From assembly GCF_000720175.1 (NCBI RefSeq), contig NZ_JOIX01000003.1, forward strand, positions 1 to 64,000: a stretch of DNA of 64,000 bases. Reading direction: 5' to 3'. The position numbers and the translations under genes are program-made. Shown piece by piece: positions 8,107 through 28,118 of the stretch. The first letter of the stretch is position 1, and the number at the start of each line of letters is the position of its first letter. Source of the stretch: Streptomyces sp. NRRL S-337 (lineage in GTDB: Bacteria > Actinomycetota > Actinomycetes > Streptomycetales > Streptomycetaceae). The notes beneath the pieces were generated by a model. The model was not told the origin of the DNA, did not search any database, and saw only the letters and a program-made list of their open reading frames with translations.

Positions 8107-9186
8107 GTGAACCGTGCTGTCACGCTGCATGACCTGATCCTTGCCGGTGCCGCGCTGATTGCCGGTATCGTCGCCGGCCTGTTGTGCAAAGCGGTATTGC
8201 GGTGGCTGGGAAAGCACGCGAGCAGAACGCGATGGAGCGGCGACGATGTCATTGTCGATTCACTGCGATCCGTGGTGCCCTGGGCGGCGATATCCGGCGG
8301 CCTGGCGGCCGCGGCCGCCGCGCTGCCGCTGACGCCTACGGTCGGACGGAACGTCAACCGGACGCTGACCGTGCTGCTCATCCTGGTCGTCACGCTGACC
8401 GCGGCCCGGATGATCACTCGACTCGTGAGGTCCCTGGCGCAGTCGCGTTCCGGCGTGGCCGGTTCGGCCACCATTTTCGCCAACATCACCCGCATCGTGG
8501 TGCTGGCAATGGGCGTTCTCGTCATCCTGCAGACCCTGGGCATTTCCATAGCCCCTCTGCTCACCGCGCTCGGTGTGGGCGGCCTGGCGGTCGCCCTGGC
8601 ACTGCAAGACACCCTCGCCAATCTCTTCGCCGGCGTACACGTATTGGCTTCGAAGACCGTACAGCCCGGTGACTACATTCGGCTGAGCAGCGGGGAGGAG
8701 GGATACGTCGTCGACATCAACTGGCGTAACACCGTGGTGCGCCAGCTCTCCAACAATCTCGTGATCATCCCGAATGCACAGCTGGCCGGCACCAACATGA
8801 CCAACTTCACCCGACCGGAACAGCAGTTGTCGATCCTCGTCCAGGTTGGCGTCGGCTACGACAGTGATCTCGAACACGTCGAGCGGGTCACCATGGAGGT
8901 CGTCAAGGGCGTCATGACCGATGTCAGCGGCGCCGTCCCGGAACATGAACCGGCCGTTCGTTTCCACACCTTCGGAGACTCTCGGATCGGCCTCACGGTG
9001 ATTCTGGGCGTGGGCGAATTCAGCGACCAGTACCGGATCAAGCATGAATTCATCAAGCGGCTCCACCAGCGGTACCAGGCCGAGGGCATCAGGATTCCCG
9101 CGCCGACACGGACGGTGGCACTGCAGCAGCACCCCGAAGACGTGGGGATACCGCAGCAACGGGGCACGTCCGACCCGGTGCTGTAG
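8107..9186 (+). CDS. MscS-type mechanosensitive ion channel
   Basis: 359 residues. Three N-terminal transmembrane helices (about 8-30, 55-75 and 85-105) precede a further hydrophobic helix at 125-142 and the pore-lining helix near 150-180, seen as APLLTALGVGGLAVALALQD. The MscS beta domain follows with KTVQPGDYIRL, then the alpha/beta C-terminal domain. MscS channels open under membrane tension to release solutes on osmotic downshift. GTG at 8107 is preferred over the ATG at 8059 because it directly precedes the first helix and has a G-rich leader. Monocistronic. Confidence 0.88.
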   Translation: MNRAVTLHDLILAGAALIAGIVAGLLCKAVLRWLGKHASRTRWSGDDVIVDSLRSVVPWAAISGGLAAAAAALPLTPTVGRNVNRTLTVLLILVVTLTAARMITRLVRSLAQSRSGVAGSATIFANITRIVVLAMGVLVILQTLGISIAPLLTALGVGGLAVALALQDTLANLFAGVHVLASKTVQPGDYIRLSSGEEGYVVDINWRNTVVRQLSNNLVIIPNAQLAGTNMTNFTRPEQQLSILVQVGVGYDSDLEHVERVTMEVVKGVMTDVSGAVPEHEPAVRFHTFGDSRIGLTVILGVGEFSDQYRIKHEFIKRLHQRYQAEGIRIPAPTRTVALQQHPEDVGIPQQRGTSDPVL

Positions 9187-9193
9187 GGGTGTC

Positions 9194-9223
9194 GGTGAGG
9201 TGAGGTGAGGTGAGGTGAGGTGA
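9194..9223 (+). repeat. GGTGA pentanucleotide repeat, six copies
   Basis: Six uninterrupted copies of GGTGA followed by a decaying G-rich tail. It starts just 8 bases after the mscS stop codon, in non-coding DNA. Confidence 0.9.
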
Positions 9224-9351
9224 GGGGAGGGGAGGGAGGCGGGGCGGGGCGGAGTGAGGCGGGGGTCGGGTGGTGCGCCGGTACGGTGATCGGCGCTTCG
9301 AGGTTGGCGTCTGTCCAGCTTCGCGCGGCCCGGCTCGGGTGCTGTCCGGCC

Positions 9352-9425
9352 CCGGTCCGCCTCCGTAGGGTCCGCCTCCGTACGGCCCCGGTCCGCCTCC
9401 GTACGGTCCGCCTCCGTACGGCCCC
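9352..9425. repeat. tandem repeat of a 16-base unit (four copies)
   Basis: Four near-identical units of GGTCCGCCTCCGTACG separated by 0 or 5 bases. Read on the minus strand the sequence would encode Gly-Pro-Tyr-Gly-Gly repeats, but no gene with a credible start surrounds it. The stretch 9187-9635 holds this repeat, the GGTGA array and the promoter of the following oxidoreductase. Confidence 0.75.
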
Positions 9426-9635
9426 AAGCCCGGCGCCCTGACCGCCCTGAGCCCTGCCTCACCTCCGGCTCGCGGCTCAGAAGAATGACGGCAGCCGGTG
9501 ACGGTATCCGTCGTCATGACACTCAACATGCCGGTATCCGCCAATCTCTCCGCGGTGGTGGCTGGCCCCGGAGCTCCGTTGCGCACTGTGGACGGCGCCA
9601 AGTGGGACAGACATCGACTGAAGAGGAGTAGTGCG

Positions 9636-10553
9636 ATGGACACGGAGACGGCGATGAACCGGACGGCGGAGGGCATGGCGGAGCCGGAGCCCACCGTGCT
9701 GGTCACCGGTGCGACGGGGAACGTGGGCCGGCAGGTCGTCGCCCAGTTGTTGGCAACCGGTGTCGAGGTACGGGCCCTGACCCGGCACCCGGACTCGGCC
9801 GGCCTGCCGCACGGCGGCGTCGACGTACGGGCCGGCGACCTGGCTGACCCACGCGGCCTGGAAGAGGCCCTGAAGGGCGTCGATCGAGCTTTCCTCATGT
9901 GGCCCTTCCATACGGCTGACGCCGCGCCCGGTGTCGTCGAGGCGCTACGGCATCACGTGGACCGCGTCGTCTTCCTCTCCTCGGGGGCCGTCCAGGACGG
10001 GCTCACCCCCGAGCAACAGCGGCACCCGGTAGGCCGCTCCCACGCCGCGGTGGAGCGCCTCATCGAACGGTCGGGACTCGGCTGGACGCACCTACGCCCC
10101 AGCACCTTCGCCAGCAACACCCTCTGGTGGGCCGACCAGATCCGCGCCGGTGACGTGGTGCGCGGCGCTTTCGGAGCGGTTCCCATGGCCCTGCTGCACG
10201 AGGCCGACATCGCCGCCGTCGCCGTACGCGCCTTGACCGAGGACGGCCACGACAAGGCGGCCTACGCGCTGACCGGGCCCGAGGTCCTGACCCAGGTCGA
10301 CCAGGTGCGCATCCTCGGTGAGGCCATCGGACGGCCCCTCCGGTGGGAGGAACTGACGCGGGAGGCTGCCCGGCAGCAGCTGCTCGCCGACGACACCTTT
10401 CCCGACTTCTTCGTGGACACCCTGCTGGATGGGTACGCCGAGATGCTTGACGCCCCGCGTCCGGTCACGACCACGACGGTCGAGGACGTGGTGGGGAGGC
10501 CGGCACACACCTTGCACCAGTGGGCGGTTGAGCACGCCGCCGACTTCCGTTAG
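9636..10553 (+). CDS. NmrA-type NAD(P)-binding oxidoreductase
   Basis: 305 residues. The Rossmann dinucleotide motif is VTGATGNVGRQV (residues 23-34), followed by VRALTRHPDSAG, which sets the NADPH preference loop, and DLADPRGLEEALKGVDRAFL. The atypical short-chain dehydrogenase fold without an obvious YxxxK fits the NmrA/azoreductase-like group, which acts as redox sensors or reductases. The ATG at 9636 follows AAGAGGAG with 7 bases spacing and is preferred to a reading from 9498. No operon partner. Confidence 0.88.
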   Translation: MDTETAMNRTAEGMAEPEPTVLVTGATGNVGRQVVAQLLATGVEVRALTRHPDSAGLPHGGVDVRAGDLADPRGLEEALKGVDRAFLMWPFHTADAAPGVVEALRHHVDRVVFLSSGAVQDGLTPEQQRHPVGRSHAAVERLIERSGLGWTHLRPSTFASNTLWWADQIRAGDVVRGAFGAVPMALLHEADIAAVAVRALTEDGHDKAAYALTGPEVLTQVDQVRILGEAIGRPLRWEELTREAARQQLLADDTFPDFFVDTLLDGYAEMLDAPRPVTTTTVEDVVGRPAHTLHQWAVEHAADFR

Positions 10554-10657
10554 CCGACCTCACCCCACCCCGCCCCATTCCGTCCCACGCCACCCCGCCC
10601 GCGGACTTGTCCCCTGACCGTCGAGAGGCAACGCCCTCGGAGCCGGCTGGCCGGCTG

Positions 10658-11062
10658 TCAGAGAGCGCGCAGTGCGTCGCCAAGGTCCGGGCCGTAGGAG
10701 GCCCAACACTGGATGTCACCGGCGTCGGAGACCAGATCGCCCAGATACCAGTGGCCGCCATTGTCGTCATTGCCGTCGCTGGCCCGGACCGCGCAGATGC
10801 CGTCGAGGTTGACCACGCAGTCGGCATGGAGGCGGTTGCCGTTGTGAGTAACGATGCCGACGGTGGTGAGCAGATGGGCTTGTGGGCAACCGGTGAGGCC
10901 CTGGACGTCCGCCAACGTCCAGGGCTCGGGCAGGCGCACGCCATACGGCCTGTCCTGCGGTTCGCCGTTCGGGCGGCCGTCCGGTTCGTCGTTGGGCTTG
11001 GGGCGCTTGGATGTGGGAGTCAACTCGGCGACGACGTGGCCGAGTTGCGGTCTCTGATCCAC
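10658..11062 (-). CDS. hypothetical protein overlapping the DUF4419 gene
   Basis: 134 residues. The first 45 are hydrophilic and Pro/Asn/Asp rich; a compact domain follows with VQGLTGCPQAHLLTTVGIVT and CVVNLDGICAVRASDGND, ending in WASYGPDLGDAL. Three cysteines are present. The GTG start at 11062 lies 43 bases inside the end of the DUF4419 gene, so the two are very likely translationally coupled and may act together. No family recognised. Confidence 0.65.
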   Translation of the reverse strand: MDQRPQLGHVVAELTPTSKRPKPNDEPDGRPNGEPQDRPYGVRLPEPWTLADVQGLTGCPQAHLLTTVGIVTHNGNRLHADCVVNLDGICAVRASDGNDDNGGHWYLGDLVSDAGDIQCWASYGPDLGDALRAL

Positions 11063-12117
11063 TCTTCGTCGCGCTCAATGCCGAGGACGCCTCCGAGGAA
11101 CGCCATGTCCAAGGTTCCCGTGGGGGTCTCCCAGCGGAACGGGACCCGGGAGACGTGTGAGGGGAATTCGTCCTCGGCGGTCGTGCCGGGCCCGAACGAC
11201 TGCTTCGGGCGCGGCCCGTCGTCGGTGTACCGGTGGGCGAAGAACGCGGTGATCCACCCGGTGACCCGGTCGCCACCCGATGCCGACTCCCACTTGTAGA
11301 GGGAACGCCAGAATTTCTGGTCGATCCCCCACCCCGAGGCCGTCGCCCAGATCGCGTCCAGCACCGGTTGCAGTGCCGTGAACCATGGCCGCAGCCCTTC
11401 GAACCACTCCGCCAGTTCCCGCACCCGGGCCGCCAGCAGACGCCAGTCCCGGTCCGTGCCCTCCAGTCGGATCCGCGGAATGCCGCAGAGGGTTTGCCAC
11501 CGAAAGCGGTAGTACGGGCTGACCACGTCCATCAGCGCCACCAGTATGGCCGTGGCGTCCGTGTCCGTGGTGGTGGAGAAGGTGGGCTGGAAGAGGTCGG
11601 CGACCTCGTCACCGATCCTGGCGCGCAGGGGCTGTTGGACCAGATTGATCGAGCGCTCCCAGTCCAGCGGGGCCAGATCGTCGCGTACGGCGATGGTCTG
11701 CCGGTGCCCCGGCGTCTCCGTGAAGATTCCCTCGTACGTCTTGGAGTTCAGCCGGACGTGCACGGCCACCTCGTGCACGACTGCGTACCAGAGGAGGTCG
11801 GGCGAGAGGCTCAGGGGGAGGTGAGCGGTGAAGCAGGTGTGGAGGGCGCGGAGCAGGAGGCTGGTGGTGGGTTCGGCGATGTCTGGGACGTCAGTGGACC
11901 AGCCTAGGAGGCGGTCGGTGCTGCGGTGGTGGAAGCATGCCGGCGGCTGATCGCGGAGCACCGCCCGTAGGAAGCCTTCGTTGCCGAGGTCGGTGAGTTC
12001 TGAGGTGAGCCGGGCGGCCTTGCCGTCGGCTGTGTCTCTTTCATCGTCTGCTGCGGCCTGTGCACATTCTTCGTCTTTGCGTTCTTCGTCCAGCGGCAGG
12101 TCTATCTCGAATGCCAT
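11020..12117 (-). CDS. DUF4419 domain-containing protein
   Basis: 365 residues. The DUF4419 signature is visible in order: LSPDLLWYAVVHEVAVHVRL, the segment TIAVRDDLAPLDW, then PTFSTTTDTDATAILVALMD, the CGIPRIRLEGTDRDWRLLA block, and FWRSLYKWESASGG with GWITAFF. This family is found in fungi, amoebae and actinobacteria and has no known activity; the CGIP...EGT.DW block is its most conserved part. The ATG at 12117 follows GGAGGGGG. The downstream 134-residue gene overlaps its end. Confidence 0.85.
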   Translation of the reverse strand: MAFEIDLPLDEERKDEECAQAAADDERDTADGKAARLTSELTDLGNEGFLRAVLRDQPPACFHHRSTDRLLGWSTDVPDIAEPTTSLLLRALHTCFTAHLPLSLSPDLLWYAVVHEVAVHVRLNSKTYEGIFTETPGHRQTIAVRDDLAPLDWERSINLVQQPLRARIGDEVADLFQPTFSTTTDTDATAILVALMDVVSPYYRFRWQTLCGIPRIRLEGTDRDWRLLAARVRELAEWFEGLRPWFTALQPVLDAIWATASGWGIDQKFWRSLYKWESASGGDRVTGWITAFFAHRYTDDGPRPKQSFGPGTTAEDEFPSHVSRVPFRWETPTGTLDMAFLGGVLGIERDEEWIRDRNSATSSPS

Positions 12118-12285
12118 CGGTCCCCCTCCGATTCCGCCCCCTGAACGGCGGTCTGAACGGCCATGTGAATGGCGCTACGAAGGCGCTACGAAGGCGCTGT
12201 GAACGGCGATCGTCCGTGATCTTAAAACGTCGACGATGTCACGGCGAATGACTGACAGAGAGCTGAAATCAGTAGCGTCGGCCCA

Positions 12286-12349
12286 CGGCCACTTGCGGTA
12301 GTAACGGCCGGCCACTTTCCGTAGTACGGCGACATTTCCGTAGTGGCGG
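12286..12349 (+). repeat. three direct repeats, possible regulator sites
   Basis: Three similar units start at 12286, 12309 and 12330, with a core like CCACTTTCCGTAGTACGG. Their phasing of 23 and 21 bases is about two helical turns, and the last ends 100 bases before the ATG of the membrane protein at 12449. The layout suggests a regulator binding side by side on one face of the DNA. The rest of the 331-base gap 12118-12448 holds a short GGCGCTACGAA repeat near 12172-12200. Confidence 0.4.
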
Positions 12350-12448
12350 GTCGGCGAGGCAGGGGCCGTACCGGATGCGACTCCCGTCCGGGGAGCACAG
12401 CATGGCAGCAGGGACGCCGGACCGGACGGAGCCGACCGGAGGTTTCGT

Positions 12449-13093
12449 ATGACTCACCCTGACACGACGCCCAAGCCCGACGATGCGTCGTCGCCGAGCG
12501 ACCCGCAACGTCCCGACGGCACACGCGGTGTCAACCTCTTCCTCGGCTTCGCCCCCTGGATCATTTTCGCCGTGGTGGCGAGCCCCAGCTCGTGGGGGTT
12601 TGCCGCGCTGGCCGCGCTCATCACGGCGATCGGGGCAAGCATCCCGGACATCAGGCGTCGCAGCTTGAAGATCCTGGACATCGCCGGACTGCTCTTCTTC
12701 GCCGTCATCTGCGTCCTGTCGCTGGTCCTTGACCGTCACGACCTGATCTGGCTGGAGACGTACGCCCAGACCCTGTCCGGCGCGGTCCTGGCCGCCGTGG
12801 CCTTCACGTCCCTCGCCTTCATGCCGTTCACCGAGCAGTACGCGCGGGAGTCCGTGCCCCGTGCGTACTGGGGGAGCCCGCTCTTCCGGCACGTCAACCG
12901 GGTGCTGACGACGGTGTGGGGCGCGGTGTTCCTGCTGACGGCCCTGCTCGGCGTCCTCGCCCTGCACGTCACGTCAGGGGTGGACTGGTTGAACTGGATC
13001 ATTCCTATCGCGTTGTTCGTGGGCGCGGTCCGCTTCACGAGGTGGTACCCGGATCAAGCCCGGGCGCGAGCTCGGCGGACGGCTGCCACGTAG
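12449..13093 (+). CDS. integral membrane protein, six helices
   Basis: 214 residues. After a hydrophilic 25-residue start there are about six hydrophobic helices, grouped in pairs: LFLGFAPWIIFAVVAS and LAALITAIGASI, then LDIAGLLFFAVICVLSLVL, AVLAAVAFTSLAFMP, VWGAVFLLTALLGVLAL and WIIPIALFVGAVRF. The C-terminus is Arg/Ala rich. The ATG follows GGAGG with a 6-base gap. No function recognised. Confidence 0.75.
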   Translation: MTHPDTTPKPDDASSPSDPQRPDGTRGVNLFLGFAPWIIFAVVASPSSWGFAALAALITAIGASIPDIRRRSLKILDIAGLLFFAVICVLSLVLDRHDLIWLETYAQTLSGAVLAAVAFTSLAFMPFTEQYARESVPRAYWGSPLFRHVNRVLTTVWGAVFLLTALLGVLALHVTSGVDWLNWIIPIALFVGAVRFTRWYPDQARARARRTAAT

Positions 13094-13101
13094 GCGTCGG
13101 G

Positions 13102-13124
13102 CGGCCTACGAGTCTTCGAGGCCG
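13102..13124 (+). terminator. hairpin after the membrane protein
   Basis: CGGCCTaCGA, a four-base loop, then TCGAGGCCG form about nine base pairs with one bulge, nine bases after the stop codon. Streptomyces terminators often lack a U tract. Confidence 0.4.
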
Positions 13125-13185
13125 GCATCGGGATTCACCCTTACGTGTGCTGCACCTCAATTCGAACATGTGATGCAATCTTCGT

Positions 13186-13446
13186 GTGACTCCTCCCTAC
13201 GCCTTCCCTGAAGATCTCGTGCAGGCTCAGCGCGCCTGGTACACCGCGTACCGAGAGCTTTCGCATGAGGAAAACCCGTCCCAGACCACGGTGCTGCGGC
13301 GCAGACTGCAGCAGCTGTCCGTGCGGATCGCCACGCACCCGTACTGGGCGAGCATCCCCGGCCGAGCACCGGCCGCACGAATGGCGCTCAAGCAGCAGAC
13401 CTGGGAGCTCGGACCGGAACCCGAGCCTGAGGAGGTCAGACCGTGA
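13186..13446 (+). CDS. small hypothetical protein (86 aa)
   Basis: 86 residues starting at GTG with no clear ribosome binding site. The N-terminus PYAFPEDLVQAQRAWYTAYR and the tryptophan-containing middle ATHPYWASIPG are typical of a family of small soluble Streptomyces proteins of unknown role. The end is acidic (ELGPEPEPEEVRP). It ends 43 bases before the stop of the convergent gene 13489-14787. Confidence 0.6.
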   Translation: MTPPYAFPEDLVQAQRAWYTAYRELSHEENPSQTTVLRRRLQQLSVRIATHPYWASIPGRAPAARMALKQQTWELGPEPEPEEVRP

Positions 13447-13488
13447 AACACGAAAGGGCTCCGCCGTGCTCCACGGGCAGGACGGGCC

Positions 13489-14787
13489 CTACGAGGCTGA
13501 CTCCGTACCTGCGCCCGCATCCGTATCGGCACCCGCTCTCGCATCCGCGCCCGCGCCCGCAGTCGTATCTGCGCCCGCACTCGCATCCGCATCCGCATGC
13601 GGAGTCGAGAGGGGGGAGATGTGGGGGAGTCCCAGTTCCACCCGGCAAAGCCGGGCCGGTGCGCCGTCGAGGCGGACGTCTTCCTCGAGGAGTTCGGTCC
13701 AGTTCGGGCGCCAGTGGGCCGCTCGGCGTGCCATTTCGAGGCGGACGGTGTGGGGCAGGGCGGCGACGACTCCGCGTCTGTCCGGCCACCAGTCCGGGAG
13801 GCAGTCGTAGCCGCGCTCGATGGTGCTGTTGGCGTCAGCATCAGCGTCAGTGTTGGAGTTGGAGTTGAAGTTGGTGTCGGGAACAGTGATGCGGATGTAC
13901 AGCCAGCGGCCCCGTTCGGGGTCGGCTTCCGCGTCTCGTGGGGCGGTCAACAGGGTGGCTGCCTCGCCGAAGATACGTCGGCCCAGCTCGTCCAGGAATC
14001 CGTCCGCACCGCGACCGTAATCGGTGTCCCCGGCGTCCACGAACGCCGCCGAGAGCACCGAACTCCCGCCCGTCCGGGTCCCATTGGTGCGCAGCCAGGC
14101 GATCAGCCGTTCCTGTTCCGATGTGGCCGGCGGTTCCGGGCGGTTGAGTTCGGTGGCCGCCTTCATCTCCACGGCGAGTACCGCGGCGTGCTGCTCGGGC
14201 AGCCAGCACGGGACCCTCCGGCCGGCGGGCTCGCCATGACCGGCCGGCAATGCTGCGGACTCGTTCGGGAGCGCGGCCGTCCGTCGGTGCGCCGCCTCGC
14301 GCTCGCGTACGGCGGCCGGGTCCGCACCGTCGGCCACCAGGTCGGCGCAGACCTGCCGCACCTCGCTGTCGTCCGCCGGGACCATGCTGCGCACGCCGTC
14401 GTCGTGCACCTCGGCGGGGTATGGCGTCCGCCCCCACGCCCGGCCGTCCCACCAGTACACAAAGCCGATCTCTTCGCCGCCGGCGATGACCTCGTCAAGC
14501 CGCTGCCATGGAAGCCAGGAGGGCCCGTCGGCCAGCAGGTCGAGGGGCGGGGACAGGCTGACGGTCTCGCTGTAGTCGTGGTCGACGCCGTAGAGGACGG
14601 CCCGTCCGTCCTCGACCCAGGACAGGGCCCACCAACCGTTCCCCACGTCCTCGGAACGCAGTTCGGCCTCGTCATGACGGTAGTTGTGCACGGGGAGCTG
14701 TTGCTCGGCACTCCAGGAAGCGAGGGTGGCGGCGTGGGACCAGAGGACGTCGGGCGCCGGGAGGTATGAGGTTCCGTCTGTGGTCAC
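13489..14787 (-). CDS. hypothetical protein with Asp/Ala-rich repeat tail
   Basis: 432 residues. The first half has many aromatic residues (WWALSWVEDGRAVLYGVDHD, IGFVYWWDGRAWGR) and a segment WLPWQRLDEVIAGGEEIGFV reminiscent of SMI1/KNR4-like folds. The middle has EQERLIAWLRTNG, and WWPDRRGVVAALPHTVRLEM lies near the end of the folded part. The last 35 residues are a degenerate tail of Ala, Asp, Gly and Thr encoded by a six-base tandem repeat (about 13495-13600). A shorter Asn/Ser/Asp run interrupts the protein around 13830-13870. No family assigned with confidence. Confidence 0.65.
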   Translation of the reverse strand: MTTDGTSYLPAPDVLWSHAATLASWSAEQQLPVHNYRHDEAELRSEDVGNGWWALSWVEDGRAVLYGVDHDYSETVSLSPPLDLLADGPSWLPWQRLDEVIAGGEEIGFVYWWDGRAWGRTPYPAEVHDDGVRSMVPADDSEVRQVCADLVADGADPAAVREREAAHRRTAALPNESAALPAGHGEPAGRRVPCWLPEQHAAVLAVEMKAATELNRPEPPATSEQERLIAWLRTNGTRTGGSSVLSAAFVDAGDTDYGRGADGFLDELGRRIFGEAATLLTAPRDAEADPERGRWLYIRITVPDTNFNSNSNTDADADANSTIERGYDCLPDWWPDRRGVVAALPHTVRLEMARRAAHWRPNWTELLEEDVRLDGAPARLCRVELGLPHISPLSTPHADADASAGADTTAGAGADARAGADTDAGAGTESAS

Positions 14788-20159: not shown

Positions 20160-21122
20160 TCATGGGGGTGGTGAGGGGGTTGGGGAAGCGGTGTGCCGGG
20201 GTTTCCAGCCCCAGGCGGTGAGCATTCCGGGGGAGAGGGCGGCGGAGTGCGGGGAGGACAGGGCCTGGCGGGCCTGTTCGAGTAGGGGCTCGTCCACCTG
20301 GCCGGTGGCGAGGATGGCGTCGCGGGTGCGTTGCCAAGTGTCCTCCCAGAAGCGGCTGATGGGGCTGCCGGGCAGTAGTGGGGGGACGTGGATTTCGGCG
20401 GCCACGGAGTGCAGGCCCTCCTCCAGCAGGAAGGCGGGGTAATCGGGCACCCAGGAGATGTCCGTCCCGATGGTCGTACGCAGGGCCTGCCACATCGCGC
20501 GCATGACCCGGGTGTACGGGGTGGCCGGGGCGGAGGAGGTCGTCAGGTCGACGGCGTCGCTGAGCACGAGAACGCCGCCCGGGGCGAGCAAGGAGCTCAG
20601 CTGGTTGATCATGCGTCGCCACGGGCGTAGGTGCATCAGTACGAAGCGGGCGTGGACCAGGTGGAAGCGGCCGGGGTCGAAGTCGGGTGCGGTCACGTCG
20701 GCGGTCTGGGCCACGAGCCCCGGCGGGGCATCGGCGGTGAGGAAGCGGGTGTCACGGTCGACGGCCAGGACGGACGTGACATCCGCCGACTCCAGCAGCC
20801 ACCGGGCGACGGTGCCGGTCCCGGCGCCTACGTCGAGGCAGTGCCAGCCGGGGCCGGCGCCCAGCGCCGTCAGCCGTGCGGTGCTCACCGCGTCGTAGGC
20901 GAGCGCTCCCAGGTCGATGCGCTCTGCCTCGCCGGCTTCCTCCGGCCGGAAGGCGTCTTCACCGTAGTGCCCGGCAGCCGGTCCAGAAAGCTCATCTGGT
21001 CCAGAAGGTGCATCTGGTCCAGAAGGCTCAGCCGGTCCGGAAGGCTCAGCGGGTCCAGCCGGTCCAGCCGGGCCAGAAGGCTCAGCCGGCCGGTCTGGCT
21101 GTCGCACCCCTCCAGTACGCAC
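20160..21122 (-). CDS. SAM-dependent methyltransferase with collagen-like N-terminal linker
   Basis: About 320 residues from GTG 21122 (GTG 21107 is the alternative). Residues up to about 45 form a linker of GPA/GPD/EPS triplets encoded by imperfect 15-base repeats (about 20985-21080). The class I methyltransferase domain follows with motif I LDVGAGTGTVARWL, the acidic loop VLAVDRDTRF, motif post I FHLVHARFVLMHL and LLAPGGVLVLSDAVDL. Last gene of the operon; it starts 23 bases after the exporter stop. The start region is a perfect 15-base duplication that repeats both GGAGG and GTG. It probably methylates the product of the upstream ligase and dikinase; this is inference. Confidence 0.82.
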   Translation of the reverse strand: MRTGGVRQPDRPAEPSGPAGPAGPAEPSGPAEPSGPDAPSGPDELSGPAAGHYGEDAFRPEEAGEAERIDLGALAYDAVSTARLTALGAGPGWHCLDVGAGTGTVARWLLESADVTSVLAVDRDTRFLTADAPPGLVAQTADVTAPDFDPGRFHLVHARFVLMHLRPWRRMINQLSSLLAPGGVLVLSDAVDLTTSSAPATPYTRVMRAMWQALRTTIGTDISWVPDYPAFLLEEGLHSVAAEIHVPPLLPGSPISRFWEDTWQRTRDAILATGQVDEPLLEQARQALSSPHSAALSPGMLTAWGWKPRHTASPTPSPPP

Positions 21123-21144
21123 CCCTCCAGTATGGGCGCGGGAG

Positions 21145-22545
21145 TCAGGGCTTTCCTGCTGTGGCGAGCGGACGGATCTCGTCGGTACGGCCCGTCTCCG
21201 CTTGGCTGCCCTCCGCACGGGCCCCGCCGCTCTCCGTACGGGTCCCGCCGTTCTCCGCACGGGCCCCGCCCTTCGCCGTACGGGCCTTGCCGTGACGTCG
21301 TAGGAGCAGGTGGAGGACGGCCAGCAGGACGGCGGTGGCCAGCGCGCTGTGCCACAACAGGGCGTCCAGGCGGTGCGCCGAGAGGTACGCGCCTGCGGCG
21401 ACGGCCGCCAGAGCGCACACCGCGCGGTCGACGAGGCTCTCGACGGACAGCAGGGTGGCGCGGGGCGCGCCCGCGGGGACCGCGTCGTTGACCAGCTTCC
21501 GCTGGAGGGGGGACGCGAGGCCGGTGACGGCGGCGAACACGCACAGCAGCGCGACGGTCGTCCAGGGACCGCCCAGCGTGCTGCCCGCCAGAGCCGCCGC
21601 CATCGCGAGGCTGAGCAGCGACACCCATGCCACCGGGGAGAGCCGCGAGGTGAGCCATTGCGGACGGGCCGAGGCCACCGCCTCCGCGACGGTCATGGCG
21701 GCCAGCACGGTGCCGTGCGAGCTCTCGCCGATGCCGTGGTCGAGCAGTACCGGCTGGAAGAGATTGACCTGGCAGATACGGGCGAGCGTGAACAGGGCCA
21801 CCCCCTGCACCATGACCAGGGCGAGCCAGGGCGTGCTGCGGACGGCGCGGAGGGCGGCGGCCGCCTCGTGGCCCGTGGCGCGCTTTCGGCCCCTGGCCGG
21901 GTCGGCCGCGGCCTGGCGGGGCAGCAGTACGGCACAGACCAGGGAGGCGCCCGCGCTGGCCGCGCTCAGGACGTACGGTGCGGAGTGCGCCAGGGCCATC
22001 AGCGGACCGAGCAGCGGCCAGCACAGCACCTTCGCGGCGAGGCCGAGCGCGCGGGCCTGGCCCTCGGCCTTCAGATAGTGGGCGCCCGCACCTTCGGCCC
22101 GCAGGCCCTCGTAGAGGTACGCACTGGCGGCACCGGAGGTCAGGGAGCGGCCGGCGGCGATGAGCAAGAAGTGGACGAGGAAGCCGGTGTAGCTGGGGGC
22201 CCAGACCGGGGCGAGGTTGGCCGCGGTCATGACGACCGCGCCCGCCCGCAGGCAGTTGCGGGTGCCGATGCGGTCGGCGATCAGTCCGGTGGGGATCTCG
22301 AAGAGGCAGAACGCGGTGTAGTAGATGCTCTGGATGCCGAAGATCTGGCCGTCGGTGAGTCCCGCCTGCCGTTGGTAGGCGTAGAACACCGGCATCCACC
22401 AGAGCAGGTTGAACAGGAGCTGGAAGCCGTTGTTCAGGCGGATGATGCGGCGGGCCCGGGGTGGCAGGGGCGGCGCGCCCGTCGTGGCCTTCGCGCGCCT
22501 GCCCGCACGACTGAGGCCCCAGGGGCCGGGGAGGTGGCGGCTCAT
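21145..22545 (-). CDS. MFS transporter
   Basis: 466 residues with about 12 helices. The MFS loop 2-3 motif appears as EIPTGLIADRIGTRN and the following helix as CLRAGAVVMTAANLAPVW. The ATG (22545) overlaps the dikinase stop in ATGA. The C-terminal tail is hydrophilic with repeats of the type GGARAENGG/GGTRTESGG. Of the families with the FGIQSIYYTAFCLFEIPTGL signature, members often sit in biosynthetic operons, so it is the likely exporter (or importer) for the pathway. Confidence 0.88.
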   Translation of the reverse strand: MSRHLPGPWGLSRAGRRAKATTGAPPLPPRARRIIRLNNGFQLLFNLLWWMPVFYAYQRQAGLTDGQIFGIQSIYYTAFCLFEIPTGLIADRIGTRNCLRAGAVVMTAANLAPVWAPSYTGFLVHFLLIAAGRSLTSGAASAYLYEGLRAEGAGAHYLKAEGQARALGLAAKVLCWPLLGPLMALAHSAPYVLSAASAGASLVCAVLLPRQAAADPARGRKRATGHEAAAALRAVRSTPWLALVMVQGVALFTLARICQVNLFQPVLLDHGIGESSHGTVLAAMTVAEAVASARPQWLTSRLSPVAWVSLLSLAMAAALAGSTLGGPWTTVALLCVFAAVTGLASPLQRKLVNDAVPAGAPRATLLSVESLVDRAVCALAAVAAGAYLSAHRLDALLWHSALATAVLLAVLHLLLRRHGKARTAKGGARAENGGTRTESGGARAEGSQAETGRTDEIRPLATAGKP

Positions 22546-24845
22546 CGGGCGGCGTAGGGGCGGATCTGGACCAGGTGGAAGTCGCCCTGATCGGTCATCA
22601 GCCATTCGATGTCCAATGGCCGGTCCACGTCCAGGTCCGGGCCGTCGGTCGGGGTTGTACCGCTGAAATGGGACTGCAGTAGCCGGCCGGTCAGGGCGAG
22701 GTCCGCCAGTCGTTCGCGGGTGGCGGCCGGCAGGTCCTCGGCGGACGAGCCCAGCGCGACGGTGCGGCCGCCGCCTTCGACCGTGTTGTACAGGTACTGC
22801 AGCGGTAGGGCGGTGCCGTCGACGACGTTCTCCGGGGAGCCGGACGAGCAGTTGAGGTAGACGTTGCGGAAATCCGCGCGCCGGGTCGGGTTGCAGGTCA
22901 CCAGCACGCCGCCGAGGCCCGCGGGCTGGTAGCGCTGGATGATCACGCCCATGTAGGTGTCGTCGGGAGAGATGCCCGCCTGGTGGCGCAGCCGGACGCT
23001 GCGCGGCGACAGCAGGGACGCCCACACCCGGCGTACCGCGGCGAGGAGTTCGTCCGCACCGTGCACCGCCGTGACCGAGTCGTACACCCCCGCCGCGGAG
23101 AACCCGGGCAGGTCCTCGGCGTTGGAGGACGAACGCACCACGAGCCGGCCGGGGGTACCGGACGCACCGGAGGGCAGCGCCTGGGGGGCGGCCGTGATGG
23201 CACGGGCCACGTCGTCAGGCATCGGGGCGGCGTGCTGGATGAGGTGCTGCAGCCGCCGGCAGAGCGGGTCGATCGTGTCGACGGTCCCGCGCGCCAGGGC
23301 GGCCTTCAGGTCGCCGATGCCCTGCTGTAGGGCGGGGGAGGAGGTGAGAAAACGGTGCTGCAGGGCGAACGGGAGGGCGATGCCGTCCGGAGCGGTGACT
23401 GTGGCGCGGACGAAGTCCCGGGCAGCTGCGCGGAGTTGGGCGCCTCGCGCGCCCTCAGGAAGGGCGGGAAGGTCAGAAAGCCCAGGAAGGACCGGAAGGC
23501 CGGAGAGGCCCAGGCGGGCGGTGAGGCGCGCGGTGAGGTGGGCGTAGAGGTTGGCCCGCGGAGGCCTGGGGCGGCCGTAGTACGCGGTCAGGTCGATGGT
23601 GTGGCCGGGGCCCTGGCCGGCGTGTTCGGACTCACCGGCCGGAATGTCCTCGCCACCGGCCAGGACGTGGTGCAGCTCCCCGAGGTTGGCTGCCTTGGTG
23701 CCGTAGCGGTTCTGGTCGGTGCGGCGCAGTTGGTGCAGGGGCAGCGCGGGTATGTCGGCGTGCAGCAGCGGGGGTTCCAGCCGTATCCGGGGCGCCGGCC
23801 GCCGGTCTGACACGCTCGGTGCCGACGTCTGGGTGAGCGCCGCAGATGATGGGGCAAGCAGTGGGGAGAGCGTCGAGCCCGACGCCTGGCGGAGCGACGC
23901 CGGGGCCTGAGGGAGCCGTACGAGGGTGATGTCGTCGTCCTGCACTTCGTAGCGGACCCATGCGCCCGCGAGTTCCTCCGCCTCGATGAGCTGGTCCAGG
24001 TCGCGGATGATGGCGTTGGGGATGCCCCAGCCGGACGCGAGGACGTTGGTGTGCGAGAGCGGGGTGGTGGGCGCGGTGTTGATGAAGCCGGCGACCCTCG
24101 GTACGTCGTCGGGCAGGCACGGCATGGCGACGATGTCGGACCCGCCGAGCGGGCCGGCACCGGCCGCGTACTGCTCGTACTCCCGGGCGGTACGGAAGTG
24201 GCGCAGCCGGCCGACGGCCTCGCCGGGGTTGAGCGGGGTGCGGGTGCGGCTGCCGAACAGCTGGTGGCTGAGGATCCGCGGCACCCGGACGTCACTGATC
24301 GCGGCGAGCGCGTGCTCCTGGCCGTGGTTCGCGGGCTTCAGCAGCAGCGGCAGCCGGCTGTCGAGCCGGTGGCGGACGAAGGTGTAGAACTCCTCCAGCA
24401 TCGGGCCGCTCATGGTGTCGGCCTCGGTCGTCTCCAGCACGAGGAAGGGGCGCGCCCGGCGGCCGGTGGGCATGTGGGTGCCCGCGTCCGCCCCCGCGCC
24501 CGCCGTCCCCGCGCCCGTGTCGGTGTGCAGGGAGAGCACGCCCAACAGGAACCTGCGCTCCGGGTCGGCGTAGACCGAGGCGTTGAACGCGTCCAGGCAG
24601 GCGTCGAGTTCCGCCAGCTCCATGCCCAGGACGCGCGTGGCGATGTAGTCGACGTGGAAGGGGTGGACGGCGGCGTCCAGCAGGTGCCAGGTGTTCTCGG
24701 CGCGGTCGACCACGACCTTCAGGAAGGGGTGGCCGGCCAGGGTGCCGCAGAGGGTGTGGAAGAGCGGGAGGGCCAGGTGCGCGCCGATGGTCGTACGGTC
24801 GCAGGCGGTCGTGTGGTCGTGGGGGGTGGTCATGGTGAGTGTCAT
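22542..24845 (-). CDS. PEP-synthase/dikinase-like protein with swivelling His domain before PPDK_N domain
   Basis: 767 residues. The first 200 are not recognised. Residues about 237-285 look like a phosphohistidine swivelling domain: DIVAMPCLPDDVPRVAGFIN and then TPLSHTNVLASGWGIPNAI, with His265 in the position of the phosphorylated histidine. A variable linker (about 310-370) leads to a pyruvate-phosphate dikinase N-terminal (ATP-binding) domain from YGTKAANLGEL (381-391) through VVRSSSNAEDLPGFSAAG (569-586) to DIEWLM (745-750) and HLVQIRPY. There is no C-terminal PEP/pyruvate TIM barrel. The His-before-ATP order resembles plant glucan water dikinases, not PEP synthase. It probably transfers phosphate from ATP to an unknown acceptor. 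Start chosen at the ATGA overlap with the ligase gene, with GGAGG upstream. Confidence 0.8.
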   Translation of the reverse strand: MTLTMTTPHDHTTACDRTTIGAHLALPLFHTLCGTLAGHPFLKVVVDRAENTWHLLDAAVHPFHVDYIATRVLGMELAELDACLDAFNASVYADPERRFLLGVLSLHTDTGAGTAGAGADAGTHMPTGRRARPFLVLETTEADTMSGPMLEEFYTFVRHRLDSRLPLLLKPANHGQEHALAAISDVRVPRILSHQLFGSRTRTPLNPGEAVGRLRHFRTAREYEQYAAGAGPLGGSDIVAMPCLPDDVPRVAGFINTAPTTPLSHTNVLASGWGIPNAIIRDLDQLIEAEELAGAWVRYEVQDDDITLVRLPQAPASLRQASGSTLSPLLAPSSAALTQTSAPSVSDRRPAPRIRLEPPLLHADIPALPLHQLRRTDQNRYGTKAANLGELHHVLAGGEDIPAGESEHAGQGPGHTIDLTAYYGRPRPPRANLYAHLTARLTARLGLSGLPVLPGLSDLPALPEGARGAQLRAAARDFVRATVTAPDGIALPFALQHRFLTSSPALQQGIGDLKAALARGTVDTIDPLCRRLQHLIQHAAPMPDDVARAITAAPQALPSGASGTPGRLVVRSSSNAEDLPGFSAAGVYDSVTAVHGADELLAAVRRVWASLLSPRSVRLRHQAGISPDDTYMGVIIQRYQPAGLGGVLVTCNPTRRADFRNVYLNCSSGSPENVVDGTALPLQYLYNTVEGGGRTVALGSSAEDLPAATRERLADLALTGRLLQSHFSGTTPTDGPDLDVDRPLDIEWLMTDQGDFHLVQIRPYAAR

Positions 24846-26266
24846 GAGCGCGCCTCCGCGGTCTCCGTCGTGCACTGCCTGTCCGTCTTGGCTTTCTCCG
24901 TCTCCTCGTGCTTCTCCTCCAGGGGGAGCACCGATGGCAACGCGTCCACCAGAGTCCGGAAGTCATGGAGCACGGTCTCGGGGTCGGCGGCGGACAACAG
25001 GCACAGCGCCGCCATCGTGTTGGCGCCAGCGGCCGGGTCGTACACCGGGACCGGAGATCCGTCCGGGAGCGAGTTCTCGGCCACTACGGACAGCCGGCTG
25101 CCGGCGCTGAGCGGTACCGCGTCCCGTACGGTCGGGAAGTCCCACCGCCGCCGGTCCGGCCAGGCGTCACCGGCGCCGTCCACGGCCAGTACGACGAGGG
25201 AGCCGGCCGCACCGCGCGCCTCCTGCGGGGTGAGAGCTTGCGCGGGCCAGGACACCGGGCGGCCCAGCAGATGGTCGATGAGCATGCCGATGAGGTCCAG
25301 GCCGAAGACCTCCTCGATCTGCGGCACGGTCATCGCCCCGCCGAACCGGGCGGCGGTCTCGATGACCCACATCCGGCCGTCGGCACCGAGCTTGATCTCG
25401 GTGTGCGTACCGCAGTTCTCCAGCCCCAGCGCGTCGACGGCCTCGCGGGCGAGGGCCACGACGCGCTGCTGGGCGTCGGCCGGCAGCGCGGCCGGGGTGA
25501 TGCCGGCGCGTTCGGTGAACGGTTCCACCGTCGGCATCCGGCCACTGAGGCAGACCGGTCGGAACACGCCGTCGACGACGACGCCTTCGACGCTGACGTA
25601 GTCTCCCCAGCCCGGCTGGTCGAACCAGCCGTCCGCGGTGCCCGGCACGATCTCCTCGACCAGGAAGTCGGCCCCGGCGTCGGCCACGTGCAGCTCCGCG
25701 TAGCCCAGTTCGGCGGATTCGGCCATCACCTCGCGGGCCCGCTGCCAGGCAGCCGGGACCTCGTCGGTGGAACGGATGATCCGGTGCGCGGTGGAGCCGG
25801 CGCTCCAGGCGGCCTTCAGCAGTACGGGGAGGCGGAGCGCGGCGGCCGCGTCCTGCAGCTCCCGCTCGTCGGCCACCGGGCGGAACCGCGGCTGGGCGAT
25901 GCCCTGCCGGTCCCAGACCCGGCGCATCAGCCGCTTGTCACGGGCGAGCGCACCGGAGGCGCCGGCGCCGGCCAGGCCGAGCTTCTCACAGGCCTCGGCG
26001 ACCGCGACGACGGCGTACTCGGAGAAGGTGATGACCGCGTCCGCGCCCACGGCCTGGGCCCGGGAGACGATCAGGGACACCAGGTCGCCCCGCTCGGGCC
26101 CGGTGGCGGTCCGTACGGACGCGCACCGGTGCTCGGCGGAGGCGGCGACGGTGGGCGGAAGCGTGCTGAGTGCCAGCAGGTGCACTGCCGACCGAGCGGC
26201 GACCCGTGACAGGGCATACCCCAAGGGCGGCCCACCCTTGGCATACACGAACAGCACCGTGCTCAC
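24842..26266 (-). CDS. ATP-grasp ligase
   Basis: 474 residues. An N-terminal pre-ATP-grasp domain (VLFVYAKGGPPLGYALSRVA; VITFSEYAVVAVAEACEKLG) is followed by LARDKRLMRRVWDRQGIAQP and LPVLLKAAWSAGSTAHRII, the ATP-binding lysine segment. FLVEEIVPG and THTEIKLGADGRMWVIETAA carry the Mg-binding Glu and Asn-like positions (here ETAAR). This is the pattern of amino acid or dipeptide ligases such as the BacD/carnosine synthase group, which activate a carboxylate as acyl phosphate. GTG start at 26266. It is the first gene of the operon, divergent from the PAS-LuxR regulator. Confidence 0.88.
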   Translation of the reverse strand: MSTVLFVYAKGGPPLGYALSRVAARSAVHLLALSTLPPTVAASAEHRCASVRTATGPERGDLVSLIVSRAQAVGADAVITFSEYAVVAVAEACEKLGLAGAGASGALARDKRLMRRVWDRQGIAQPRFRPVADERELQDAAAALRLPVLLKAAWSAGSTAHRIIRSTDEVPAAWQRAREVMAESAELGYAELHVADAGADFLVEEIVPGTADGWFDQPGWGDYVSVEGVVVDGVFRPVCLSGRMPTVEPFTERAGITPAALPADAQQRVVALAREAVDALGLENCGTHTEIKLGADGRMWVIETAARFGGAMTVPQIEEVFGLDLIGMLIDHLLGRPVSWPAQALTPQEARGAAGSLVVLAVDGAGDAWPDRRRWDFPTVRDAVPLSAGSRLSVVAENSLPDGSPVPVYDPAAGANTMAALCLLSAADPETVLHDFRTLVDALPSVLPLEEKHEETEKAKTDRQCTTETAEARS

Positions 26267-26609
26267 TGGAATCCGACTCCTTCACAGGCGGGGAGGGGCC
26301 GTGGGAACGGCCTTTGTTGTCGCGGCGGCTGACTGCCTCGCCGCGGTACTTCCAGAGAACCACCGGGACGGTGCCCGATCTGCCGTCTCGGGCGCCGAAC
26401 GCTCAGGCAAACGCCAGAGTTGTGGAGTTCGCCGAGCGGCTGTGAAAGTTCTGTGATGCCGTATGGGGCCCCGCGCCCACCAGATAGGCCGAGAACCGGG
26501 CATACGGCGTAGCGGCAGGGGATACGCATGCCAGGGGCGAGCCGGCCCGGGACGCCAGGTGGCCGAACGCCCCGCCATCTCTCCGTCTCTTCGTCACAGA
26601 GAGGCCGTC
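26267..26609. promoter_or_regulatory. divergent promoter region of the ligase operon and PAS-LuxR gene
   Basis: 343 bases with no gene. An inverted repeat CCGTATG / CATACGG (26459-26465 and 26501-26507) has its arms 42 bases apart, four helical turns, and lies about 100 bases before the regulator start. It could be a site for the regulator or another factor. No consensus PAS-LuxR palindrome of the PimM type was found. Confidence 0.35.
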
Positions 26610-28118
26610 GTGGACGAGACCGGTCTGAAGTCGCTGCTCCAACACCTCCCGGTGTCCTGGTGGGAGGCCGACCGCGAGCTACGGGTGATCGACAGCGGAG
26701 GAGGAGCCTTCGACGACACCCGCACCGCCCAGCGCTTCCTCGACACGGTCACGGACCAATGGCAGGCACTCGACCCCTCGCAGGCGACCGACCTCTCGCA
26801 GGCCAGGGGCGCATCTCGGGCCACCGACACCTCGCGGGGCACAGACACACCACGGGCCACCGACGACCGGAAGGCCGGTGACCACTGGCGGACGGGTGAC
26901 CACTCGCGGACCGGTAACCACTGGCGCGCGCGGTTCGACGGCCGGGTCTTCGACGTGAACTGGCCACTCGATCCAGCCCGGCAGGACCGCCTCCGCGGCA
27001 TCGCGGTCGAGGTAACCCCGGAACCGGCCACGGAACCGGCCACGGAACCGGCCACGGAATCGGCTTCAGCCCCTGGCCCGGAGCCGACCCCGCCCCCGGC
27101 TCCCGCCCCTGCTTCCCCGCCCGCCACCACCACCCGCCGCTACGACGCCTTCGCCGACCTCGCCCCCGCCGCGGCCTTCATCCGTGACCCCGACGGCCGT
27201 TACGTATGGGCCAACCACGCCTACGCGCACCTCTACGGAACCACCCCCGAGCACGTCATCGGCAAGGACGTGCGCCAGGTCGACGCCCCGGCCGACGCCG
27301 ACCGGGTGCTCGCCCTGGACCAGGAGGTGCTGGCCCGCGGCAAACCGGTGCGGCACACCCTCACCTACCACCGCTCGGACGGCACCACCGGCCACGCGGC
27401 CGGCCACCGCTTCCCCGTACACGAGGGCACCCAGACCTGTGTGGCCGGTATCTACATCGACATCAGCGACCACACCCGCGCCCTCCACCAGCGCCAACAG
27501 GCCGAGGAGAACCTGTACGCGCTGCGCGACCACAGCGGTCTGCCGTGCGCCCTGATCTCCGCCGGGGGAAGGATCCTCCAGGCCAGCGCGGCAGCCGCGG
27601 AACTCCTGCAGACCCGGCTCTCCGACCTCGTGGGCCGCCGGGCCCACACCCTGCTCGCGCCCGCCCCGGACTTACCCGCACTCCGGCGGAGCTGGCACGC
27701 CCTGATAGCCCGCCGCAGCCGGCGCGTCGAGACCTCCACCGTCCTCGTCGACGGCCGGGGTCGCCAGCGCCGCGCCCAACTGCACCTGACCACCGTGGGC
27801 CGGGGCCCGTCCCGCGCGGCCAGCGTCTGGGCGGTGATCACCCACCAGAGCCTCGCCCACGAACCCCATCCCCCGCTGACGGCCAGTCAGGTACGGATCC
27901 TCTCCCTCCTGGCCGCGGGCCGCAGCAACGCCGAGATCGCCACCTCCCTCCGCCTCTCCCGCCAAACCGTCGACTACCACCTCAGCCGCCTGCGCGACCT
28001 CCTCAACGCCCCCACCCGATGCGCCCTGGTCGCCCGCGCCTACGTCCTCGGCATCCTCGCCCCCCAGTCCTGGCCACCCCGCTCAGCAACGGCAGGCCAT
28101 CCACAGAGCGCCACTTGA
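26610..28118 (+). CDS. PAS-LuxR transcriptional regulator with TTA codon
   Basis: 502 residues from GTG 26610, after AGAGAGG. A first PAS-like domain (VSWWEADRELRVID, HWRARFDGRVFDVNW) is split by a hexapeptide repeat (residues 59-106). An EPAT repeat and Pro-rich linker (139-172) lead to a second PAS (AFIRDPDGRYVWANHAYAHL ... VAGIYIDISDHTRA), then a third PAS-like part (SGLPCALISAGGRILQASAA). A LuxR HTH lies at about 438-500: LTASQVRILSLLAAGRSNAE and LSRQTVDYHLSRLRDLL. Leu355 is encoded by TTA (27672-27674), rare in Streptomyces and read by the developmentally controlled bldA tRNA. It is the likely pathway regulator of the divergent operon. Confidence 0.88.
   Translation: MDETGLKSLLQHLPVSWWEADRELRVIDSGGGAFDDTRTAQRFLDTVTDQWQALDPSQATDLSQARGASRATDTSRGTDTPRATDDRKAGDHWRTGDHSRTGNHWRARFDGRVFDVNWPLDPARQDRLRGIAVEVTPEPATEPATEPATESASAPGPEPTPPPAPAPASPPATTTRRYDAFADLAPAAAFIRDPDGRYVWANHAYAHLYGTTPEHVIGKDVRQVDAPADADRVLALDQEVLARGKPVRHTLTYHRSDGTTGHAAGHRFPVHEGTQTCVAGIYIDISDHTRALHQRQQAEENLYALRDHSGLPCALISAGGRILQASAAAAELLQTRLSDLVGRRAHTLLAPAPDLPALRRSWHALIARRSRRVETSTVLVDGRGRQRRAQLHLTTVGRGPSRAASVWAVITHQSLAHEPHPPLTASQVRILSLLAAGRSNAEIATSLRLSRQTVDYHLSRLRDLLNAPTRCALVARAYVLGILAPQSWPPRSATAGHPQSAT
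26784..26927 (+). repeat. 18-base coding repeat (hexapeptide array)
   Basis: Eight degenerate units such as ATDTSR, GTDTPR, ATDDRK, AGDHWR, TGDHSR and TGNHWR, in frame within the PAS-LuxR regulator. The last unit is the ordinary PAS sequence, so the array looks like an expansion of that native motif. A second, 12-base repeat (EPAT) lies at 27020-27060. Confidence 0.8.

Follow-up and report, generated by a model that had tools for sequence, protein, structure and literature searches.

The stretch of DNA analysed here (the window) comprises 64,000 nucleotides from Streptomyces sp. NRRL S-337 (contig NZ_JOIX01000003.1), and the system of interest within it is a compact gene cassette that pairs an ATP-grasp ligase with a dikinase-like phosphotransfer protein. 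Reading of the open reading frames (ORFs) confirmed four leftward genes at 26266-20160 on the minus strand. These are a BacD-like ATP-grasp dipeptide ligase (24842..26266, GTG start at 26266, stop at 24842; Pfam ATP-grasp_4, 9e-12), a dikinase (22542..24845, ATG start at 24845, stop at 22542; PPDK_N, 1e-37), a major facilitator superfamily (MFS) transporter that is presumed to be an exporter (21145..22545, ATG start at 22545, stop at 21145; MFS_1, 5e-14), and a class I S-adenosylmethionine methyltransferase (20160..21122, stop at 20160, likely GTG start at 21122; methyltransferase domain, 2e-13). The original prediction of a leftward operon with two ATGA overlaps holds, with the ligase and dikinase genes overlapping at 24842..24845 and the dikinase and MFS genes at 22542..22545, both on the minus strand. 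The gap before the methyltransferase, predicted as 23 bases, measures 22 bases if GTG 21122 is the start, although this start codon is uncertain due to a repetitive N-terminal stretch; PSGP-like repeats open the gene (20943-21122). No nonribosomal peptide synthetase or polyketide synthase was found among the genes at about 17-29 kb of the window, and the earlier picture of a compact route of ligation and phosphorylation with an exporter, free of such synthetases, appears to be right.

A regulator gene reads in the opposite direction on the plus strand (26610..28118). It encodes both a PAS sensor domain and a C-terminal LuxR helix-turn-helix (HTH) domain (PAS_4, 5e-20; GerE, 4e-11). The longest ORF begins at ATG 26463, and the start may be GTG 26610 instead. 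The ORF at 26463-28118 contains a single in-frame TTA (bldA) codon, at 27672..27674 on the plus strand, in agreement with the predicted divergent regulator of the "bldA type."

By its sequence the ligase is of the ATP-grasp L-amino acid ligase type and BacD-like. Residues 60-342 align with residues 88-366 of BacD structures (E value ~2e-48), and the protein has the ATP-grasp fold together with BacD-like ligase motifs. The NCBIfam BacD model matches it at 3e-53 and 181 bits, a score that does not reach the curated cutoff of 850 bits.

The dikinase consists of an N-terminal part, a swivelling phospho-histidine domain, and a C-terminal ATP-grasp domain; in the model of the homolog at locus L039 the histidine domain spans residues 184-294 and the ATP domain residues 317-671. 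His265, within an SHTN motif (codon at 24051..24053, minus strand), is invariant in 14/14 and 40/40 aligned members, and the domain containing it superposes on the histidine domain of rifampin phosphotransferase (RPH). This histidine is presumed to be the phosphorylated residue. The window protein is about 100 residues longer than its relatives through low-complexity insertions, and its structure model was middling (predicted local distance difference test score 67.7), so a compact relative was modelled as well. The N-terminal part (residues ~1-180) had no match in the structure library, a result that is no sign of a new fold because this part was never queried alone.

Conservation and regulation of the cassette

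A first search found the dikinase in 25 of 199 Streptomyces genomes. A profile search found full-length dikinases scoring above 940 bits in 45 of 392, while the remaining matches covered the ATP domain only (at most 123 bits). We examined the neighbourhoods of all 44 dikinase genomes besides the window's own, as well as a set of named loci consisting of the best 80 of 208, which lean to close relatives and overlap with the 44, so that the 2 sets of counts are not additive. Glycosyltransferases, methyltransferases, and HAD-like genes were counted by tblastn on stretches of at most ~20 kb.

The ligase and MFS genes adjoin the dikinase in 44/44 sampled relatives (with truncated matches at L088 and another gene order at L042), and the divergent LuxR gene is present in 39/44. 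The methyltransferase lies beside the cassette in only 5/44 sampled relatives and 4/80 named loci. The predicted co-occurrence thus stands for ligase, dikinase, and MFS transporter and fails for the methyltransferase, and a four-gene unit was rejected. Among the named loci, the LuxR gene is divergent from ligase-dikinase-MFS in 71/80 (the methyltransferase accompanies 4 of these), sits at the opposite end in 7, and is missing from 2. The ligase stop is part of ATGA in 65/80, GTGA in 12/80, and CTGA in 3/80. The shared grouping of ligase, dikinase, and MFS genes and this stop context exceed what chance would give. The conserved unit is therefore LuxR-ligase-dikinase-MFS, and the methyltransferase is a local, lineage-specific accessory gene. 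No amino-acid-forming enzyme was conserved alongside the cassette in the neighbourhoods of the sampled relatives.

Genes flanking the cassette vary between genomes, as judged from crude gene calls that also include antisense ORFs, and the cassette dikinase occurs on 2 Streptomyces plasmids of 555-561 kb (NZ_CP109451.1 and NZ_CP108236.1); together these indicate that the cassette moves as a unit. With a profile of the window's clade, 396 genomes across the phylum yielded no full-length dikinase outside Streptomyces. A second protein search found named full-length dikinases in Kitasatospora, Nonomuraea, Amycolatopsis, and others, so the 396-genome tally understates the spread; a class-level search returned matches from one genus only. 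Two further full-length relatives, P0238 and P0241, bear the names of Clostridia and Bdellovibrionota bacteria. The L042 locus (9126-13776, genome G090) has a third arrangement, dikinase-MFS-ligase without a LuxR gene or TalC relative, and the dikinases close to it carry the names Nonomuraea, Streptosporangium, and Streptomyces yangpuensis. L088 and L151 (S. malaysiense) contain a decayed cassette in which the ligase end and a short MFS match are left, directly abutted by a LuxR match.

Between the divergent genes lies a palindrome, CTCTGGCGTTTGCCTGAG (26402..26419, minus strand), with the consensus CTCAGGCATTTGCCTGAG across relatives. Matches of at least 14/18 bases occur in 70/79 upstream regions versus 1/395 shuffled ones, and of at least 12/18 bases in 73/79 versus 41/395; the 79 regions are 78 named loci plus the window, and they also served to derive the consensus. 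The 6 regions without the palindrome belong to the group with the other LuxR arrangement. The window copy has 2 mismatches to the consensus (expected 0.04), and in the whole 9.06 Mb genome a single site fits a pattern modelled on this copy when up to 2 mismatches are allowed. This palindrome, newly described here, is likely the operator of the divergent regulator. Reading frames containing TTA codons were found for the regulator in 28/74 named loci, the ligase in 24/80, the dikinase in 5/80, and the MFS transporter in 2/80.

Relatives beside TalC-like glycosyltransferases

A wider profile found full-length dikinases in other genera of the same family, and 16 loci were examined, with one more genome of a Kitasatospora-type genus (G912) outside this set. 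In 9 of the 16, all from Kitasatospora-type genomes, the order is dikinase-ligase with no MFS gene, and an EryCIII-like glycosyltransferase follows the pair in 9/9, one of them cut by a contig end. In a protein search this glycosyltransferase was 86% identical over 97% to P0254, "TalC, Streptomyces mozunensis," and the view of this operon as mere coincidence was rejected once the match was seen. We take TalC to be the glycosyltransferase and TalE the kinase of the tal pathway. The product of S. mozunensis, talopeptin, is a stereoisomer of phosphoramidon and a metalloprotease inhibitor (PMC6429109).

The window dikinase is 42-46% identical, over nearly its full length, to the dikinases of these 9 loci, and the window ligase is 44-46% identical to their ligases. 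We infer that the counterpart of the window-type dikinase in these loci is TalE. In trees of 53 rows, built for ligase and dikinase, the 9 tal-type rows stay together as a single clade in each. The window sequences fall together with those of S. nigrescens, S. endophytica, S. lydicus, and S. noursei; the ligase tree carries a long-branch warning. No TalC relative was found at an E value of 1e-10 in the 45 cassette loci including the window, nor in the 80 named loci, and the window's genome has its best TalC match, at 40% identity, on another contig (C42). The cassette lacks TalC and so falls outside the deoxysugar phosphoramidate family; by analogy, its probable function is that of the tal pathway's first half. 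The original prediction had found no characterised cluster to match; this does not hold for the ligase and dikinase pair, which matches tal, and it does hold for the sugar-less variant, for which literature searches turned up no published cluster. Downstream of one tal-type locus is a gene for a type 2A encapsulin shell protein with a cyclic nucleotide-binding domain (L187:16684-18111).

A proposed route and its alternatives

What was directly observed is which genes are present and how far they are conserved, their homology to genes found next to TalC, the lack of TalC at the locus, and the palindrome. The interpretation that we consider to have a good chance of being correct, drawn from sequence comparison, is that the window encodes a phosphoramidate dipeptide pathway of the talopeptin/phosphoramidon type that lacks the glycosyltransferase. 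As in other members of its family, the ligase would join 2 L-amino acids via an acyl phosphate. The dikinase would then, by comparison with its tal relatives, move a phosphate from ATP to His265 of the swivelling domain and pass it to the dipeptide, probably to the amino group, and the resulting N-phosphoryl dipeptide would be exported by the MFS protein. An uncapped phosphate would be in keeping with inhibition of zinc proteases in the manner of phosphoramidon. The methyltransferase may decorate the product in the S. lydicus/nigrescens group. The product is most likely an N-phosphoryl dipeptide that is exported and, in the window's group, possibly methylated. Expression would depend on the PAS-LuxR protein, acting at the palindrome, and on bldA, acting through the TTA codon.

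Several points weigh against this reading. The identity of the window ligase and dikinase to the tal-type proteins is moderate, and TalE was not found by name in protein searches. Trp332 of BacD is named as specificity-determining in PMC6920838. At the site aligned with the BacD tryptophan where chains 3wnz and 3wo1 diverge, taken as Trp332, the cassette ligases have alanine (72/84) or valine (12/84), and the tal-type ligases have leucine in 9/9, so that the pocket differs and the dipeptide may differ too. Neighbouring motifs are also unlike, GRMPTV..FTERAG in the cassette and AKLPTV..FVEVAS in the tal type. Since phosphoramidon contains the dipeptide Leu-Trp, these differences suggest that the cassette dipeptide is probably not Leu-Trp. 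In addition, an HAD-like protein encoded in many relatives means that the phosphate could be temporary.

The gene for this HAD-like protein is convergent to the MFS gene in 18/44 sampled relatives and 29/80 named loci, and in 28 of these 29 it lies 3.8-4.4 kb from the dikinase start. Its co-occurrence with the cassette is newly described here: it was found in 28/45 cassette genomes versus 2/347 others (Fisher 9e-29, kinship ignored), and with the 18 linked cases removed in 10/27 versus 2/347 (4e-11, kinship ignored), in a search of 392 genomes that scored 7 candidates per genome and in which 4/30 matches contain a stop. Beyond this set it occurs in 2/5 further Streptomyces, 0/9 tal genomes, and 0/6 cassette genomes of other genera, and the window's own genome had no match among the 7 of 52 candidates scored. 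By eye, the protein seems to carry a signal peptide, and its assignment relies on weak Pfam matches below cutoff, weak PDB matches (NagD, E value 0.01), and motifs likewise read by eye, with D60, T64, T98, K148, E171, and E175 conserved and the second aspartate of motif I replaced by glycine. A shared regulon was rejected, with the operator found upstream of 0/13 HAD genes away from cassettes, one of which (L206) encodes a more distant HAD-like protein. In G069 (L200:5380-7324) an unlinked HAD-like gene, far from that genome's cassette, stands beside a methyltransferase 67% identical to the window's, which ties the 2 accessory genes together.

These HAD-like genes bear on an alternative in which the product is a phosphorylated pro-metabolite. 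Streptomycin phosphate is the model for this logic: the phosphate would protect the producer, the product would leave the cell still phosphorylated, and a secreted HAD-like phosphatase would free the active dipeptide outside. The enrichment in cassette genomes, even when unlinked, the apparent signal peptide, and the absence from tal genomes are consistent with this scheme. Its weak enzyme assignment, the missing match in the window's genome and in 17/45 cassette genomes, and the lack of an operator at 13/13 unlinked genes argue the other way, and we regard it as possible but rather unlikely. It is improbable that the dikinase is instead a condensing enzyme like the prodigiosin ligases PigC and RedH, with phosphate merely activating and a phosphate-free product: models of both do match it, but weakly, far below cutoffs and only over the ATP-binding part, the cassette already has a dedicated ligase, and the nearest functional context is the TalC-bearing pair. 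A BacD-like ligase with an adjoining MFS gene also recalls bacilysin, where the logic is that of an antimetabolite dipeptide, and the dikinase might make or modify an unusual amino acid before ligation; with no amino-acid-forming enzyme conserved at the cassette, and a kinase that acts after ligation in the tal precedent, this seems improbable.

Few natural products contain a P-N bond, and phosphoramidon is in standard use as an inhibitor of metalloproteases. If the tal-type reading is correct, the cassette makes an unrecognised sister compound of phosphoramidon, and a compact, easily expressed three-gene cassette in 45/392 sampled Streptomyces makes sugar-free relatives of it, with the LuxR regulator and its single operator as an on-switch to wake it; the co-occurring secreted HAD-like protein makes the fate of the phosphate testable. 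A bolder and doubtful extension is that about 1 in 9 Streptomyces species make an unrecognised class of exported phosphoramidate dipeptides, with the phosphate left bare where tal producers add a sugar, and that many of them also secrete a HAD-like P-N hydrolase dedicated to activating or clearing the compound; the protease inhibitor would then be cycled on and off outside the cell.

Comparison with known systems

The window ligase shares the ATP-grasp L-amino acid ligase fold and motifs with BacD, the alanine-anticapsin ligase of bacilysin synthesis, but its score is far under the BacD equivalog cutoff and it has alanine in place of the bulky tryptophan. Like phosphoenolpyruvate (PEP) synthase, pyruvate phosphate dikinase (PPDK), and RPH, the dikinase combines an ATP-grasp domain with a swivelling histidine domain; the canonical order of those enzymes is ATP first and histidine last, whereas here it is permuted, with histidine before ATP, and the N-terminal 180-200 residues stand where the substrate domain of RPH or PEP synthase would be. 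The regulator resembles PimM-type proteins in having PAS and LuxR HTH domains and a palindromic site with the shared core GGxAWWTxCC, their published box being CTVGGGAWWTCCCBAG (PMC9774167); compared with them, the window-type protein is larger and its site, CTCAGGCATTTGCCTGAG, has other half-sites. The closest likeness in pathway logic is to the tal pathway of S. mozunensis, through a homologous ligase and dikinase, which share 42-46% identity with the two proteins encoded next to TalC-like glycosyltransferases. Tal-type loci differ in ligase pocket residues and gene order and carry the TalC-like glycosyltransferase, in place of which the window cassette has an MFS transporter and a PAS-LuxR regulator.
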